Assembly (NCBI RefSeq): GCF_000337575.1
Contig: NZ_AOIM01000043.1
Span: 1-64,000, forward strand
Source: Natrialba hulunbeirensis JCM 10989
GTDB taxonomy: Archaea; Halobacteriota; Halobacteria; Halobacteriales; Natrialbaceae
Direction: 5' to 3'
Length of the DNA: 64,000 bases
Both the position numbers and the translations under genes were made by a program. A model generated the notes under the pieces. It searched no databases. It was given only the letters and a program-made list of their open reading frames with translations, and had not been told where the DNA came from. This document shows, piece by piece, positions 9,312 to 33,315 of the stretch; the stretch's first letter is position 1, and each line of letters opens with the position of its first letter.

Positions 9312-9339
9312 GCGAACTTATTCGTGCGAATATGTTCGC
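9312..9339. promoter_or_regulatory. 28-bp near-perfect palindrome upstream of the halocyanin gene
   Basis: GCGAAC-T-TATTCG-TG-CGAATA-T-GTTCGC: both six-base arm pairs match exactly; only the two centre bases and the two spacer positions break the symmetry. It is 35 bases after the flavin oxidoreductase stop and about 45-75 bases before the halocyanin start. No T-run follows it, so an operator for a dimeric regulator is more likely than a terminator. The regulator is unknown. Confidence 0.55.
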
Positions 9340-9412
9340 CACACTCCCACCTATTGGGAACAACAACCGCTTTTCAACCCCTATGAGTGCCAAGCGAGGA
9401 GTGACGACAACG

Positions 9413-9901
9413 ATGACCGACCAAACCCACACTCGACGAACCGTCCTGCAGGCTGCAGGCGCGACGTCCGTCGTCGCCCTCGCTGCCGGTTGTCTGAGTG
9501 ACGATGAAGAGGAGAACGGTACCGGAAACGGCGGTGGAAACGGCGAGGACGACGACGACATCGACCCATCGGAGTGGGAAGACGTCGACACGATCGAACT
9601 CGACGGCGCAACCGGCGGCTGGGAAGGTGTCGCTCCTGACATGATCGCTGGCGAGCAGAACCCAACGGTCGTCCTCTTCGAGGGCCAGGAGTACGACTTC
9701 ACCTGGTACAACGCAGACAGCGGCACCCACAACATCGAAATCTGGGACGAGGACGAAGAGATAGTCGACGACTACGCGACCGACCAGGTCAACGACGACG
9801 AGCAGACGCTTTCCGGCGTCGTTGCCTCCGAGGAGATGGCCTACTACCGCTGTGAGCCACACGGCCAGATGCAGGCCCCGATTCAGGTCGAAAGCGAGTG
9901 A
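9413..9901 (+). CDS. Halocyanin-like blue copper protein, Tat lipoprotein
   Basis: Membrane-anchored electron carrier with a type 1 copper site. From the chosen ATG the protein opens MTDQTHTRRTVLQAAGA, a Tat signal, with lipobox LAAGC. An Asp/Gly-rich linker follows (about residues 30-50). Copper ligands fit the plastocyanin pattern: His in SGTHNIEIW, then Cys, His and Met in YYRCEPHGQM. An in-frame ATG at 9383 would add ten residues. Electron donor and acceptor cannot be told; it is alone between a flavin oxidoreductase and a long non-coding stretch. Confidence 0.9.
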   Translation: MTDQTHTRRTVLQAAGATSVVALAAGCLSDDEEENGTGNGGGNGEDDDDIDPSEWEDVDTIELDGATGGWEGVAPDMIAGEQNPTVVLFEGQEYDFTWYNADSGTHNIEIWDEDEEIVDDYATDQVNDDEQTLSGVVASEEMAYYRCEPHGQMQAPIQVESE

Positions 9902-27630: not shown

Positions 27631-28722
27631 TCAGTCCTCGAGTTCCGTCGGCAGCTTGTCGGCCGGATCATCCGACGTGTTCGCGTCGACAGTTCGGCGG
27701 TTCGTTTCGCCGATCCGGTCTGCGATGTTGGCGACGACCTCCTCGACGGCCTCCTGTACCGGGCTGTCGTCGTCCTTGACGAGTGCACCCTCACTTCCCT
27801 CTGCACCGAAGTCAGGGTGGATTGGGATCTGGCCAATCATCGGCACGTCGTACTTGTCGACGATGGATTCTGCGCCATCGGTGCCGAACAGGCCGTGCTG
27901 GTCGCCACAGCTTGGACAGACGAACGAACTCATGTTCTCGACGACGCCCAGCACCGGCGTGTCGTGCTTGTTGAACATCTGGATGCCCTTCCGGGTGTCC
28001 TCGAGTGCCATCTCCTGTGGCGTCGTAACGACGACAGAGCCCGTCACCGGCATCGACTGCAGCAGATTCAGCGTCGCGTCACCGGTGCCTGGCGGCAGGT
28101 CGACGATGAGGTAGTCCAGCCGTCCCCACTCGACGCCCTCTAAGAATTTCAGCATGAACTTGTTGACCATCGGGCCGCGGAGAATCGCCGGGTCGTCCTC
28201 CTCTTCCATCATGAAGCCCATACTGATGACGCGGACACCGTCGGATCGCGGCGGAACGATGTCCTCGCTCGGCGTCACGCCGGGTTCGCTCTCGACCGGC
28301 AGAATCTTCGGGATGTTCGGCCCGTGAATGTCGGCGTCGAGCAGCCCGACCATCGCGCCTCGTTTTTCGAGTCCAGCCGCGAGGTTCGCTGCGACCGTGG
28401 TCTTCCCGACACCACCTTTCCCGGAGGCGACGGCGATGACGTTACGAACGCGGGGCAGGACCTCGTCGTCGAAGCCGTGTTCCGCGCCGGCGTGGGCGCG
28501 CAGGTCGGCCTCGAGTCCTACGTCGTCACAGACCTCTCGAATCCGGTTGCCAAGCTCCATTTCGGAGGGTGCGTATGGCGTGTTGAACGCGAGTGAGATA
28601 CGAGCGGTTTCGTCCTCGATGGTGACGTCGTTGACGAGTCCGAGCGAGATGATGTCCTCGCCGATGTCCGGGTCCTCGATCCCTTCGAGCTTAATCTTGA
28701 GTTCGTGTTCTGTGATGCTCAT
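27631..28722 (-). CDS. Mrp/NBP35-type Fe-S cluster carrier ATPase
   Basis: 363 residues. N-terminal MIP18/DUF59 domain (about 1-80), then a deviant Walker A GKGGVGKTT at 101-109, DLPPGTGD switch region, and a CPSC pair at 269-272 (CxxC) that bridges a 4Fe-4S cluster between two subunits. Delivers Fe-S clusters to apo-enzymes in the cytosol. An acidic tail of about 30 residues follows. The nearby Fe-S/NrfD operon on the same strand is a plausible client, but so are other Fe-S proteins. Confidence 0.94.
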   Translation of the reverse strand: MSITEHELKIKLEGIEDPDIGEDIISLGLVNDVTIEDETARISLAFNTPYAPSEMELGNRIREVCDDVGLEADLRAHAGAEHGFDDEVLPRVRNVIAVASGKGGVGKTTVAANLAAGLEKRGAMVGLLDADIHGPNIPKILPVESEPGVTPSEDIVPPRSDGVRVISMGFMMEEEDDPAILRGPMVNKFMLKFLEGVEWGRLDYLIVDLPPGTGDATLNLLQSMPVTGSVVVTTPQEMALEDTRKGIQMFNKHDTPVLGVVENMSSFVCPSCGDQHGLFGTDGAESIVDKYDVPMIGQIPIHPDFGAEGSEGALVKDDDSPVQEAVEEVVANIADRIGETNRRTVDANTSDDPADKLPTELED

Positions 28723-29008: not shown

Positions 29009-29317
29009 TTACGGACCGGGTGCCGCGAGTGGTTCCGGCAGGCCGCCGTAGAAGACGACGCCGATGATGACGGTCAGGATGAACATCCCGATCCACATCT
29101 GGGCCGTAATCCCGACGAGGTAGGAGACGCCGAGCAGGCCGGTCTTGCTATCGCGGGGCTGTCCGAGGAACCAGGCAGCGACCATCACGTAGACGGGAAC
29201 GAGGATGACCCCGAAGATGAGGTAGGTCCCGATGTTCGGGAAGCCCGTCACACCCTCGGTGCCGTCGTAGCCGTGATAGAGGATGAACGAGAGCGCGGTG
29301 GTAAGCGCTGGGATCAT
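29009..29317 (-). CDS. Small membrane subunit of the NrfD-type complex
   Basis: 102 residues with three hydrophobic helices: around ALTTALSFILY, TYLIFGVILVPVYVMVAAWF and AQMWIGMFILTVIIGVVFY. No cofactor motif. The start overlaps the NrfD-like gene's stop by four bases (ATGA), so it is the third, translationally coupled gene of the operon. It probably sits beside the NrfD-like subunit in the membrane, comparable to small membrane subunits of other quinone-linked complexes. Confidence 0.75.
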   Translation of the reverse strand: MIPALTTALSFILYHGYDGTEGVTGFPNIGTYLIFGVILVPVYVMVAAWFLGQPRDSKTGLLGVSYLVGITAQMWIGMFILTVIIGVVFYGGLPEPLAAPGP

Positions 29318-30729
29318 GCTTCAACCTCCGGCTGCTCTGCACTTTCGTCTACCGATTCGTGGTCGTGTTCGTGGCCGTGACCGTGGTCACCACGAAGGTG
29401 TTCGACCGCGTGGAGCTCGACCACGGGAACGAGCTTCGACAGCACGAGGAAGAACAGTACCACCATGCCGACCGTTCCGACGAGTGACAGCAGTTCGATC
29501 GCGCTCGGGAAGTACTCTCCTGGAGAACCATCGTAGATGCTGAACGACGGGTACCAGAAGCCAGAGAGGACGAAGTACGTCTTCTCGACCAGCGTCGCGG
29601 TCAGCACGAGCAGGCCAGCAGCGATCGCACGGCCCTTGCTGAACAGCGATGGACGGATCGTCTGTGCGAAGATGTACACCAGCACGCCGAGCACCATCAG
29701 CATCGGGCCGACGTACATTGGGTGCGAGAACTTCGACGCAGTTGCGTCTGCGTGGTCCGTCGTTGGGTGGAAACTGCCCGTGGCGAGCTGCTGGAGCTGC
29801 AGCCAGAGGAACAGCAGGCAGAAGAATCCGAGCCACAGGAGCAACCCACGGAAGATGTCGTCAGTGATGATGTGGTCCCAGTCGTACGCGCGGCGGAACG
29901 CGTAGGACAGGAGGATCACGCCACTGATTGCCGACGTGAGTGCGATCGTCAGGAACTGTGGTCCCTGAATGCCACCGAACCAGCCAGGGTAGTTTGGCAG
30001 GACGGCGAACAGCCATGGAATGACACCGCCGTGAAGCAGCAGTGGTGCCATGATAATGATCGCGAGTGCGACCCACCAGACCATCCGGTCGATGACCTTG
30101 TCTTCGGCCTTGGTGTAGCCGAGGGTCAGCACGTTGTAGACCGGTGCGAGAAGGTCAGGCAGCTGTTTTCCACCCACGTTGGGCGCGAACGACGGCAGGT
30201 CATCGCGTAGGCGTGCGATGTCGTATCGGAGCGTGAGCCCGAGATACGTCGCCGTCAGCACGAAGTAGGCCGTAATGACAGTAACGTCCCACACCAGTGG
30301 CGAGTTGTTGACCGTGATGTGGTAGTGACCGATGATGCTCGTGACCATGCGGTCCGGACGGCCCATGTGCACCATGATGTAAAACCCTGCTGCAGAGAGG
30401 CCAGCGAGCGTCAACATCTCTGCGAGGCGGGCAACCGGCATGTATCGATCCATGCCGAGCAGTCGGACCGCAGCGGAGAGGATAATCCCGCCGTGAGCGA
30501 TCCCGACCCACCAGATGAACGCGCCGATGTACAGTCCCCAGGTGACACCGCCACCGCTACCCCAGTCGGAGAGGCCGGTAACGGCCATCCCCTGCTGCAG
30601 CTGGTACATCCAGCCGACGAGGAAGGCACCGAGTGCCAGCGCCGCGATGGCGAACAGGAGGACGTACTTCTTCGTGAACGTGTGCATCGGCCGCAGGATG
30701 TCGTCCTCAGACGGCGTCTTGGTGCTCAT
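29314..30729 (-). CDS. nrfD: NrfD/PsrC-family quinone-binding membrane subunit
   Basis: 471 residues with about ten membrane helices. Members pass electrons between membrane quinone and an attached Fe-S protein. Polar residues inside helices, such as His and Glu in WWVGIAHGGIILSAAV and RLAEMLTLAGLSAAGFY, are where the family binds quinone or moves protons. The C-terminal tail is His-rich (GDHGHGHEHDHE) and may bind metal. Start overlaps the Fe-S gene's stop by ATGA, and its stop overlaps the small subunit start. No catalytic molybdopterin gene is adjacent. Confidence 0.92.
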   Translation of the reverse strand: MSTKTPSEDDILRPMHTFTKKYVLLFAIAALALGAFLVGWMYQLQQGMAVTGLSDWGSGGGVTWGLYIGAFIWWVGIAHGGIILSAAVRLLGMDRYMPVARLAEMLTLAGLSAAGFYIMVHMGRPDRMVTSIIGHYHITVNNSPLVWDVTVITAYFVLTATYLGLTLRYDIARLRDDLPSFAPNVGGKQLPDLLAPVYNVLTLGYTKAEDKVIDRMVWWVALAIIIMAPLLLHGGVIPWLFAVLPNYPGWFGGIQGPQFLTIALTSAISGVILLSYAFRRAYDWDHIITDDIFRGLLLWLGFFCLLFLWLQLQQLATGSFHPTTDHADATASKFSHPMYVGPMLMVLGVLVYIFAQTIRPSLFSKGRAIAAGLLVLTATLVEKTYFVLSGFWYPSFSIYDGSPGEYFPSAIELLSLVGTVGMVVLFFLVLSKLVPVVELHAVEHLRGDHGHGHEHDHESVDESAEQPEVEA

Positions 30730-32381
30730 AAGGACACCCCAGCGTCACCGACCGTCATCTCGTCGAGGACCTCCTTGCGGTTGTCTGCGAGCGGCACGGA
30801 GCTACCGTCTGCGAGGTCAGCTTCCACGTCTTCGTAGGCAACTGGCCCATCAACCTGCTCTGCCTGCGGACCTGGCTCGTTGCCCAGGTAGATGATGTTC
30901 GGGTTGGTACCCATGTCCTGGAGCAGTTGGAAGTTCGACGACGGCTCGCCGGCTTCGTTCACGAGAACGGTCTGTGCCGCGCTCTCGTCTGGACCGTCGA
31001 ACTCCTCGTCCTCGTCCGGTTCGTCGGCGAGGTCGAGTCCAACGAGGACTTCCTCGCTGTCGAGGTCGAGGCCGTGTGCTTCGAGCGCATCGAAGGCCTC
31101 GACGATGTTCTGCTCGTATTCGGTGTGGCTGTCGTCGCCCTCACCGAAGTCGTCGGTGACGATCTCGATCGCCTTCATGATCCGGAGGTCCTCCTCGTCG
31201 AGGTCTTCGGACGCCTCCAGAACGGACTCGAGGTCGTCGTCCGCGCCGTCGAGGTCGTCCTCGAGTGCGTCCGCCGAGGGGACGCTCATGTCGATGTCGG
31301 AGAGTGCGCGACCACGGGCCGGGTTGTCGGCGTAGGTCTGTGGGTCGCTGTTGTCGTCGAACATGTTGCCGAACTGGATCGCGTCCGGCGGACAGGCGTC
31401 CTCACAGGCGGTCGTTCCGACAGCGTCCTCGCCCATGCCGCCATCCTGACGGGTTGGGCACATCGTACACTTGCTCATGACGCCACGCGGTGCGCGACTG
31501 TCGACCCAGCGACCACGTTCGTCGGACATGTGGTCGTGTGGGACATCGCTATCGTGATCGTGGTCGCCCATTTCTTCCTGTGCCTGTGCCTCGATGTCTT
31601 CCGTGGTGATGTCGGGTTCGTCCCACTGGAAGTAGTTGACACCGTACGGACAGGCAACCTGGCAGTATCGGCAGCCGATACAGACGTCGTAGTCGGTCAG
31701 GACGAGGCCGTCGTTGTCACGCGTGTGACGCGCGGTCGTCGGACAGACCTTCTCACACGGTGCGTCGGTACAGTGCTGGCACGGTCGAACGAGTCGGTTG
31801 CGACTCGTGTCGACGCCGTTGTCCTCGTAGTCGAGGACATACATCCAGTTGACACCGCGGTCCAGATTGTTCTCCTCTGCACAGGCCTCGACACAGGAGA
31901 GACAGCCGTCACAGCGCTCGAGGTCGATCGCCATACCCCACTGAACGTCCTGCTCAGTGTCGTCGCCCTCCTGGGCGGCGGCGACGTTCGGCTCGCTCTC
32001 GCTGCCACCTTCCGAGGCACCGAAGGCACCGAGACCGACGAAGGCTGCACCGGCACCCATCTTCTTCATCATGCCGCGGCGACTCTCTTCGCCGTCGCTG
32101 TCGACACTCTTTAGCATCTCGGCGAAGCCGCCAGCGTTCTTTTGGGCCTCTTCGTAGGCCTCCTCGGTCGGGCGGTCGTCGACGCCGAACTCCTCCATCA
32201 CGTCGTCGTGATACTTCTCGTGGAAGTCGGCTTCGGAGAGTTCGCCCTTCGTGACGCGCATGGCGTCTTCGGCCATCTGCATCCCGAGGTCGCTGTCGTA
32301 CTCGGTATCGTCGAGCATCGTCTCGAGTTCATTCTCCCACTCTTGGCCGAGTGGATGGAACGATTCGTCTTCCGTACTCAT
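30726..32381 (-). CDS. PsrB/DmsB-like 4Fe-4S ferredoxin subunit
   Basis: 551 residues. Four cluster motifs fit the 16-Cys electron-transfer subunits: CDGCLSCVEAC from Cys157, CQHCTDAPCEKVC, CIGCRYCQVAC, and CTMC paired with CEDAC. About 100 acidic residues precede a Tat-like segment SRRGMMKKMG with a hydrophobic stretch GAAFVGLGAFG at about 109-121, an unusually late position. A second acidic, probably disordered insertion spans about 350-480. First gene of the operon, coupled to the NrfD-like gene. Probably passes electrons between the NrfD-like subunit and an enzyme encoded elsewhere. Confidence 0.9.
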   Translation of the reverse strand: MSTEDESFHPLGQEWENELETMLDDTEYDSDLGMQMAEDAMRVTKGELSEADFHEKYHDDVMEEFGVDDRPTEEAYEEAQKNAGGFAEMLKSVDSDGEESRRGMMKKMGAGAAFVGLGAFGASEGGSESEPNVAAAQEGDDTEQDVQWGMAIDLERCDGCLSCVEACAEENNLDRGVNWMYVLDYEDNGVDTSRNRLVRPCQHCTDAPCEKVCPTTARHTRDNDGLVLTDYDVCIGCRYCQVACPYGVNYFQWDEPDITTEDIEAQAQEEMGDHDHDSDVPHDHMSDERGRWVDSRAPRGVMSKCTMCPTRQDGGMGEDAVGTTACEDACPPDAIQFGNMFDDNSDPQTYADNPARGRALSDIDMSVPSADALEDDLDGADDDLESVLEASEDLDEEDLRIMKAIEIVTDDFGEGDDSHTEYEQNIVEAFDALEAHGLDLDSEEVLVGLDLADEPDEDEEFDGPDESAAQTVLVNEAGEPSSNFQLLQDMGTNPNIIYLGNEPGPQAEQVDGPVAYEDVEADLADGSSVPLADNRKEVLDEMTVGDAGVSL

Positions 32382-32521
32382 CGCGTTAGAACACCTCTTG
32401 ACATGCGGTTCCAGTCACAACGTGAGTACGCAACGGCACCCACTTGAATACGTTCATTTGCGGTTCCTCTAGAGCGCACTCACCGCTACCAATCGAAGAA
32501 AGACACAGTCGATTTCCACAC

Positions 32522-32531
32522 CGTGGGAATG
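32522..32531. promoter_or_regulatory. CGTGGGAATG motif in the Fe-S/NrfD operon promoter
   Basis: This 10-mer recurs exactly at 33306-33315 upstream of the HTH-10 regulator gene. Here it is half of a weaker inverted repeat (CATTCCCACG and GATTTCCACA on the minus strand). It lies 20-25 bases downstream of a TATA-like box at 32551-32557, so close to the predicted transcription start. Confidence 0.5.
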
Positions 32532-32550
32532 GGTGCGAACAAGTTCGCTA

Positions 32551-32557
32551 GTATAAG
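32551..32557 (-). promoter_or_regulatory. TATA-like box of the Fe-S/NrfD operon
   Basis: The minus strand reads CTTATAC in an otherwise GC-rich gap between the regulator's stop and the operon. It would give a leader of about 145 bases before the Fe-S gene ATG at 32381. Confidence 0.45.
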
Positions 32558-32569
32558 TAGGTTGCTAGC

Positions 32570-33244
32570 TCAGCTCTGAACGAGTTGGTCCTCGAGTGGA
32601 GACTCGGGATCGGTATCAGGCACGCGGTCGAGGAATTGCTTGATAATCGCCTCCTCCGCACGGTGAAGCGTTTCGCTGCACGTCGATTTTGCAATTCCCA
32701 GATGCTCGGCGAGTTCGGTCAGCGAACTTCGGCGCGGCGTATCGTAGTATCCCTGCTCGACGGCAGCAGTGAGCACCTCGAACTGGCGATCCGAGAGGAG
32801 TTGGCTGTCGTGAAGCTGCTCGGTGACAGTCTCGATGCGATACTGCAGTCCAAGCCGTTCGAACTGCGCTGCGAGTTCACCCAGTCGCTCGCGCGAACCA
32901 GTTACCTCGACCGTCGCGCGTCCGTCCTGAATCGTCACCGGCAACTCGATCGGCATACCGGAATTCCGCGAGGAGAACAGCAATAGCGGTTTCGTCGTCT
33001 CGAAATGCACCGTCGCTTCCCCGTCGCTTCGCTGTGTGAGCGTCACCTCCGTGAGCTGGGGGTGGTCGGTCATCGTCTCGAGTACCTGCTCGACGTTCGA
33101 CCCGGTGATCTGGACGAGCGCGAAGCCGGTGTCTGCTCCGGGAACCGCGGCGAGCACCCGAAAGGTCGCGTCCGGGTTCGCCGTCGATACCTGCTGAATC
33201 CAGACGTGGTCGGGCAGCGTGATAGTGAGGGTCGCCTGCGCCAT
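32570..33244 (-). CDS. HTH-10 (Bat/DmsR-type) transcriptional regulator
   Basis: 224 residues. The C-terminal HTH-10 domain is clear: LLSDRQFEVLTAAVEQGYYDTPRRSSLTELAEHLGIAKSTCSETLHRAEE pattern from about residue 150. The N-terminal about 145 residues form the usual sensory/Bat-like domain with no PAS or GAF. Haloarchaeal relatives include Bat, which activates bacterio-opsin, and DmsR, which activates DMSO reductase genes under anaerobiosis. It sits just upstream of the Fe-S/NrfD operon on the same strand, so it most likely controls it. Confidence 0.9.
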   Translation of the reverse strand: MAQATLTITLPDHVWIQQVSTANPDATFRVLAAVPGADTGFALVQITGSNVEQVLETMTDHPQLTEVTLTQRSDGEATVHFETTKPLLLFSSRNSGMPIELPVTIQDGRATVEVTGSRERLGELAAQFERLGLQYRIETVTEQLHDSQLLSDRQFEVLTAAVEQGYYDTPRRSSLTELAEHLGIAKSTCSETLHRAEEAIIKQFLDRVPDTDPESPLEDQLVQS

Positions 33245-33294
33245 GGCAATCGTTCACTCGAGTGTTGGGGCTGGACAACCAATAGGCACCGTCA

Positions 33295-33315
33295 CATTCC
33301 TACCACGTGGGAATG
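33295..33315. promoter_or_regulatory. Inverted repeat CATTCC-n9-GGAATG region upstream of the HTH-10 gene
   Basis: CATTCCTACC-A-CGTGGGAATG: the arms match at eight of ten positions. The right half equals the motif at 32522-32531. It is centred about 60 bases upstream of the regulator's ATG, where no clear TATA box is seen, which fits an activator site or autoregulation. Confidence 0.55.

Follow-up and report, generated by a model that had tools for sequence, protein, structure and literature searches.

Bacterial alternative complex III (ACIII; ActABCDEFH, PMC5928083) combines an NrfD-family quinol subunit, ActC, with a Tat-exported Fe-S protein, ActB, and is found mostly where bc1 is missing, with some coexistence. 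The quinol site of ActC consists of His139, Ser164, Asp169 and Asp253 (PMC5928083, PMC8076601). ActB carries a molybdopterin-like B1 domain and an N-terminal extension ahead of its RR motif, the operon encodes a second NrfD protein (ActF), and two cytochromes c, the multihaem ActA and the monohaem ActE, belong to the complex, whose acceptor is a cytochrome c or a HiPIP. Other described systems with comparable subunits are PsrABC/DmsABC and DsrMKJOP, while quinol oxidation with a one-electron carrier as acceptor is also the reaction of cytochrome bc1/b6f, encoded in haloarchaea by petABD.

How electrons travel from quinol to halocyanin in haloarchaea without bc1 has been left unresolved in the literature (PMC3403918, PMC8305020), and bc1-less members make up about one third of the haloarchaea (PMC8305020). 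Natronoarchaea have been described as lacking complex III and its alternatives, their oxidases being said to use quinol directly (PMC6176080). Here we describe a conserved haloarchaeal gene cassette which, judged from its sequences and distribution, is likely to specify a small, haem-free, ACIII-like menaquinol:halocyanin oxidoreductase, that is, a haloarchaeal alternative complex III.

Organization of the cassette

The window, a stretch of 64,000 nucleotides from Natrialba hulunbeirensis JCM 10989, lies on contig C43 of a genome of 4.16 Mb that is 98.8% complete. Its cassette is transcribed in the order HTH-10/BAT, Fe-S, NrfD, TM3 and Mrp/ApbC (Table 1). A preliminary description of this DNA had reported ATGA overlaps, 16 Cys in the Fe-S subunit, an HTH-10 regulator of the module's own and no adjacent catalytic subunit. 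All of these observations hold: ATGA is present at both the FeS-NrfD and the NrfD-TM3 junctions, the count of 16 Cys is exact, approximately 190 bp separate the Fe-S gene from the regulator gene upstream, and no catalytic subunit is encoded nearby or forms part of the operon at the 58 cassette loci compared below. The boundaries had to be redrawn. Positions 30726-33315, once taken for the whole module, span the Fe-S gene and the regulator alone, the NrfD and TM3 genes lying below them, and the conserved cassette continues to the Mrp/ApbC gene, which presumably encodes a maturation factor for the Fe-S subunit. The men genes, earlier proposed as the source of the module's quinone, are 9-21 kb away; menE/C/A linkage is rare in relatives within the flanking stretches examined, and this link was rejected.

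Table 1. Positions of the cassette genes and of related features (plain coordinates refer to the window, others to the locus named)
Feature	Position	Strand	Remarks
HTH-10 / BAT-like transcription regulator	32570..33244	-	224 aa; PF04967 9e-20, PF15915 2e-6
Fe-S subunit	30726..32381	-	551 aa; PF16947, Tat RR, four 4Fe-4S motifs
NrfD-family quinol subunit, ActC-like	29314..30729	-	471 aa; PF03916 1e-19
TM3, small two-helix membrane subunit	29009..29317	-	102 aa; no known Pfam family
Mrp/ApbC (NUBPL-type) iron-sulfur carrier	27631..28722	-	PF10609 7e-92
ORF, possible divergent halocyanin	9332-9901		
Upstream halocyanin genes	L036 (= L203), L059, L201, L202, L207, L211	same strand as the Fe-S gene	PF00127, Tat/lipobox-like start
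Stand-alone PF16947 proteins	L111:7453-7695, L112:6773-7027, L114:7541-7783, L116:8142-8375		heads of Psr/Dms operons
NrfD2, solo NrfD copy, source genome	L076:9164-10675		contig C15
NADH-rubredoxin-reductase-like FAD protein	L076:7461-8699		Rubredoxin_C domain; neighbour of NrfD2
FeS2, solo Fe-S copy, source genome	L110:8008-9492		contig C9
Type II DMSO-reductase-family operon, source genome	L078:1399-10386		contig C25; MopB, Fe-S, chaperone
Di-haem cytochrome c peroxidase	L213:3279-4586		CCP_MauG; G385, family f11

The Fe-S subunit

The four cluster motifs of the Fe-S subunit use its 16 Cys and are accompanied by a variable acidic insert. PF16947 (Ferredoxin_N) was matched at residues 9-73 (E 8e-35), and the Tat RR stands behind it at residues 101-102. 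This RR, earlier placed after a long acidic region, is a Tat signal conserved across cassette Fe-S subunits, and the supposed acidic region is the known domain PF16947. The N-terminal 141 residues gave no match to an extended-Tat domain among NCBIfam models, and no molybdopterin-family match was found in the whole protein. Its nearest solved relatives are ArrB (7e-30) and the C-terminal domain of ActB (1.5e-22). The AlphaFold model (mean pLDDT 60) was too poor in the cluster core to use, and its fold matches were consequently not relied on. Residues ~346-477 are confidently predicted (block pLDDT up to 97) to form an acidic helical domain, which is inserted in some cassettes only.

PF16947 holds no cluster motif, making its Pfam name misleading. 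In haloarchaeal Psr/Dms operons (PF16947, MopB, FeS, NrfD, TorD) it also forms a free-standing first gene product of ~80 aa, and this association with MopB suggests an export or assembly role of the domain for Fe-S or molybdopterin proteins.

The NrfD subunit and comparison with known systems

By sequence and predicted fold, the closest counterpart of the NrfD subunit is ActC of bacterial ACIII. The protein passes the curated cut-off of the NrfD family PF03916 (71.7 bits against 25.8), and by sequence it matched ActC chains only in the PDB (best E 5e-16). A fold search with its model (mean pLDDT 75, pTM 0.79) placed four ActC chains first (TM ~0.76-0.81, E 2e-13); since two Flavobacterium ActC sequences were included in the model's input alignment, this match is not fully independent, whereas the PDB sequence match is. 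H121, S143 and D148 align with His139, Ser164 and Asp169 of ActC and are kept throughout the cassette clade; the alignment shows no conserved counterpart of Asp253, NrfD having Leu240 there. At the alignment position of His121, haloarchaeal PsrC and Archaeoglobi DsrP carry Asp instead. In the tree, the cassette NrfD clade joins ActC, itself a long branch, weakly (93/73), and is separate from haloarchaeal PsrC and true Archaeoglobi DsrP.

The cassette shares with bacterial ACIII an NrfD of ActC type that keeps His, Ser and Asp of the quinol site, a Tat-exported Fe-S protein extended N-terminally of its RR, and a distribution centred on genomes without bc1, with some coexistence. In Flavobacterium ActB a Thr interrupts one cluster motif (CVGTRYC), whereas the cassette protein keeps all 16 Cys. 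ActA and ActE have no counterpart in it: FeS, NrfD and TM3 contain no CxxCH, and no cytochrome gene was found within the cassette at the 58 loci. The B1 domain is missing as well, only the Fe-S part being present, and so is ActF, there being one NrfD per cassette. Given these missing haem subunits, B1 domain and ActF, we do not file the cassette as a member of ACIII, although it is proposed to work like ACIII, with a blue copper protein as its proposed acceptor instead of a cytochrome c or HiPIP. With cytochrome bc1/b6f it has in common the proposed reaction and a largely complementary distribution, but it encodes neither cytochrome b nor a Rieske protein, and a Q cycle is not expected. Haloarchaeal Psr/Dms operons (e.g., L111) share the Fe-S and NrfD arrangement, PF16947 and a regulator gene; unlike the cassette they contain MopB and a TorD chaperone, and their NrfD proteins form a clade of their own with the Asp noted above. 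The best NCBIfam matches of the cassette, DsrO (136 bits) and DsrP (71 bits), fall far under their cut-offs of 200 and 350, respectively, and the cassette lacks DsrM, J and K. Membership in DsrOP, PsrBC, QrcCD and NrfCD was rejected on scores under the cut-offs or, where tested, on separate branches.

Conservation of the cassette

Scanning the named genomes yielded 67 haloarchaeal loci, and the cassette is present at 37 of these; adding 20 regions from other genomes and locus L115 gives the 58 cassette loci (L203 apparently represents the same contig as L036). The order FeS-NrfD-TM3-Mrp is found in nearly all 58, the exceptions being cut-short stretches or G130, where no Mrp was found, and its recurrence is far above chance. 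Nearly all 37 named-genome loci have the HTH-10 gene upstream (L057 has no regulator and L067 is cut short). FeS, NrfD and TM3 also follow one another in the other-genome regions and L115, and Mrp was found there in every case but L210 (G130). In Natrialbaceae the HTH-10 gene adjoins the cassette almost without exception, and it is mostly missing outside this family. TM3 follows NrfD in nearly all loci, and its motif is kept in all lineages examined. A tandem duplicate of TM3 occurs in L007, L008, L009, L011, L014, L017, L020, L042 and L070, where the second copy may serve the second NrfD.

Solo NrfD copies constitute a second class, which falls within the Natrialbaceae cassette clade. The solo copy of the source genome, NrfD2, groups with this clade, apart from ActF, and a solo Fe-S copy, FeS2, is also present, the second Fe-S/NrfD pair thus being split across contigs C15 and C9. 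FeS2 has Asp replacing Cys at the position of C308, and with NrfD2 it may form a further complex of differing cluster chemistry. The pairing of NrfD2 with the nearby NADH-rubredoxin-reductase-like gene recurs in several loci, mostly from Natrialba. A cytochrome c peroxidase gene adjoins the cassette in one member of family f11 (Table 1); c-type haem would be unusual in haloarchaea.

Replacement of cytochrome b across Halobacteria

Close relatives of the window NrfD (E 1e-140 or better) were found in 129 of 394 Halobacteria genomes, and cytochrome b, scored by PF00033, in 295. The cassette NrfD without cytochrome b occurs in 96 genomes, both together in 33, cytochrome b alone in 262 and neither in 3, so that the cassette NrfD is present in 96/99 genomes without cytochrome b against 33/295 with it. 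Fisher tests gave 1e-58 overall, 2e-9 within Natrialbaceae, 3e-13 outside and 6e-11 by genus, shared ancestry being handled by the within-family and by-genus counts alone. Among Natrialbaceae, 80 genomes have NrfD without cytochrome b, 10 have both, 11 have cytochrome b alone and none has neither. Outside this family the pattern holds in four separate groups (f3 g41, f3 g60, f10 and f11), and the cassette NrfD is present in each of the 22 genera that lack cytochrome b. Two of the genomes with neither gene, G007 and G094, also lack COX2; the remaining one, G368, is a draft of 91% completeness. The usual cytochrome bc is missing from roughly one quarter to one third of haloarchaea, and this distribution indicates that the cassette most likely takes its place there.

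The earlier proposal of a molybdopterin partner

The preliminary description regarded the module as delivering quinol electrons to, or collecting them from, an enzyme encoded elsewhere. An Fe-S/NrfD quinone module is what it is, and it very probably takes its electrons from quinol; a molybdopterin partner was not supported. According to that reading, the module would be the membrane part of a respiratory molybdopterin enzyme whose genes lie elsewhere, linking quinone and enzyme. Fe-S/NrfD pairs are indeed typical of Psr/Dms enzymes, some MopB gene occurs in 358/394 genomes, and separate PF16947 proteins belong to haloarchaeal Psr/Dms operons. We nevertheless consider this reading improbable, for MopB is in the operon at 0/58 loci, L208 and L115 alone having, within the stretches examined, a separate MopB several kb off, and the cassette NrfD clade is distinct from haloarchaeal PsrC. 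A search of the source genome for the partner returned a single MopB, of the type II DMSO-reductase family, which was rejected in this role because it comes with a dedicated beta subunit and chaperone. The module tracks the absence of cytochrome bc, and some module genomes have no MopB match: G020, G043, G102 and G209 carry the cassette NrfD without cytochrome b and without a MopB match, the last three being single-contig assemblies. No MopB match was found in G032 either, nor likewise in G180, G219, G301 and G303 (by subtraction from the MopB list). The MopB operon of the source genome has no adjoining NrfD; a Mrp-like ATPase gene and an HTH-10-like gene are nearby.

CuA oxidases and the quinol-to-carrier step

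CuA enzymes accept electrons singly from a small carrier. The source genome has genes for two oxidase subunits II whose CuA motifs are intact (CFELCGFGHSGM and CNEYCGPNHHNM), for a protein resembling nitrous oxide reductase and for one or more halocyanin-type proteins. Since CuA enzymes are fed by a one-electron carrier, a quinol-to-carrier enzyme is required in this genome, in which PF00033 gave no match and Rieske searches gave 3, two of them not bc-type-looking on reading and the third being L163. The CuA motif was found in 30/30 COX2 loci checked, 29 from cassette genomes and one from G368. The COX2 search covered 80 genomes and gave no match in G130, which has the cassette and a halocyanin gene.

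Alternatively, terminal oxidases might oxidise menaquinol directly, with no complex III needed and the cassette unrelated. Such direct oxidation is a published inference for two natronoarchaeal groups (PMC6176080), and quinol-type oxidases such as cytochrome bd occur in haloarchaea, for which cydAB is listed (PMC8305020). This is in our judgement even less probable than a molybdopterin partner: intact CuA motifs in subunits II are a mark of one-electron-fed enzymes, the source genome has a halocyanin-type gene, and an unrelated cassette would not track cytochrome b loss.

Halocyanin as candidate acceptor

Six genomes, from Natrialbaceae and family f3, have a halocyanin gene directly upstream of the Fe-S gene (Table 1). 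A halocyanin gene is divergent from the cassette in f10 (G130), and G258 has a divergent copper-protein-like gene just under the Pfam cut-off. No halocyanin gene adjoins the window's own cassette, and it is mainly from these gene neighbours in other species that we infer halocyanin to be the acceptor. The window ORF listed in Table 1 begins with a Tat/lipobox-like segment and contains YRCEPHGQM, which resembles a copper site; it gave no Pfam match at 1e-3 and is a possible divergent halocyanin.

Least probable of all is the reverse direction, in which the module would draw on halocyanin or a different external donor and reduce menaquinone, as QrcABCD, an Fe-S/NrfD complex, does with cytochrome c3 (PMC13059093). 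QrcC did appear, weakly, in the family matches, but this direction leaves the replacement of cytochrome b in CuA-oxidase genomes unexplained, has no linked donor enzyme, and runs against the net quinol oxidation that aerobic heterotrophs require.

A candidate haem-free complex III

We propose that menaquinol would be bound and oxidised by NrfD at the outer side of the membrane, where the Tat-exported Fe-S subunit would dock. Its four clusters would conduct the electrons and hand them singly to halocyanin; this blue copper protein, anchored by a lipid, would in turn supply the CuA oxidases. The two-helix TM3 may stabilise or couple the membrane part, Mrp/ApbC could provide the Fe-S clusters, and the HTH-10 protein would tune expression. 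At the sequence level, this menaquinol:halocyanin oxidoreductase is supported by gene content and order, the replacement of cytochrome b, the CuA oxidases, the export signal and some halocyanin linkage, and likewise by the ActC-like quinol-site residues and fold. The reaction, the electron transfer, its direction and proton pumping by NrfD are predicted by analogy with bacterial relatives. With somewhat less confidence than in the general assignment, we favour the complete scheme of a haem-free complex III in which electrons pass from quinol through NrfD and the Fe-S clusters to a blue copper protein, with proton translocation by NrfD and no Q cycle.

Within the open-access literature, with subscription papers and preprints outside the search, no prior proposal of the cassette as a complex III was found. 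An Fe-S/NrfD pair without a molybdopterin subunit does not warrant annotation as a component of a Psr/Dms reductase. The cassette is a specific, testable candidate for the published gap between quinol and halocyanin. If the proposal is true, its product would be the simplest complex III known, and haem-free complex III would constitute a third class beside bc1/b6f and bacterial ACIII, one that would have been repeatedly exchanged with bc1 during haloarchaeal evolution.
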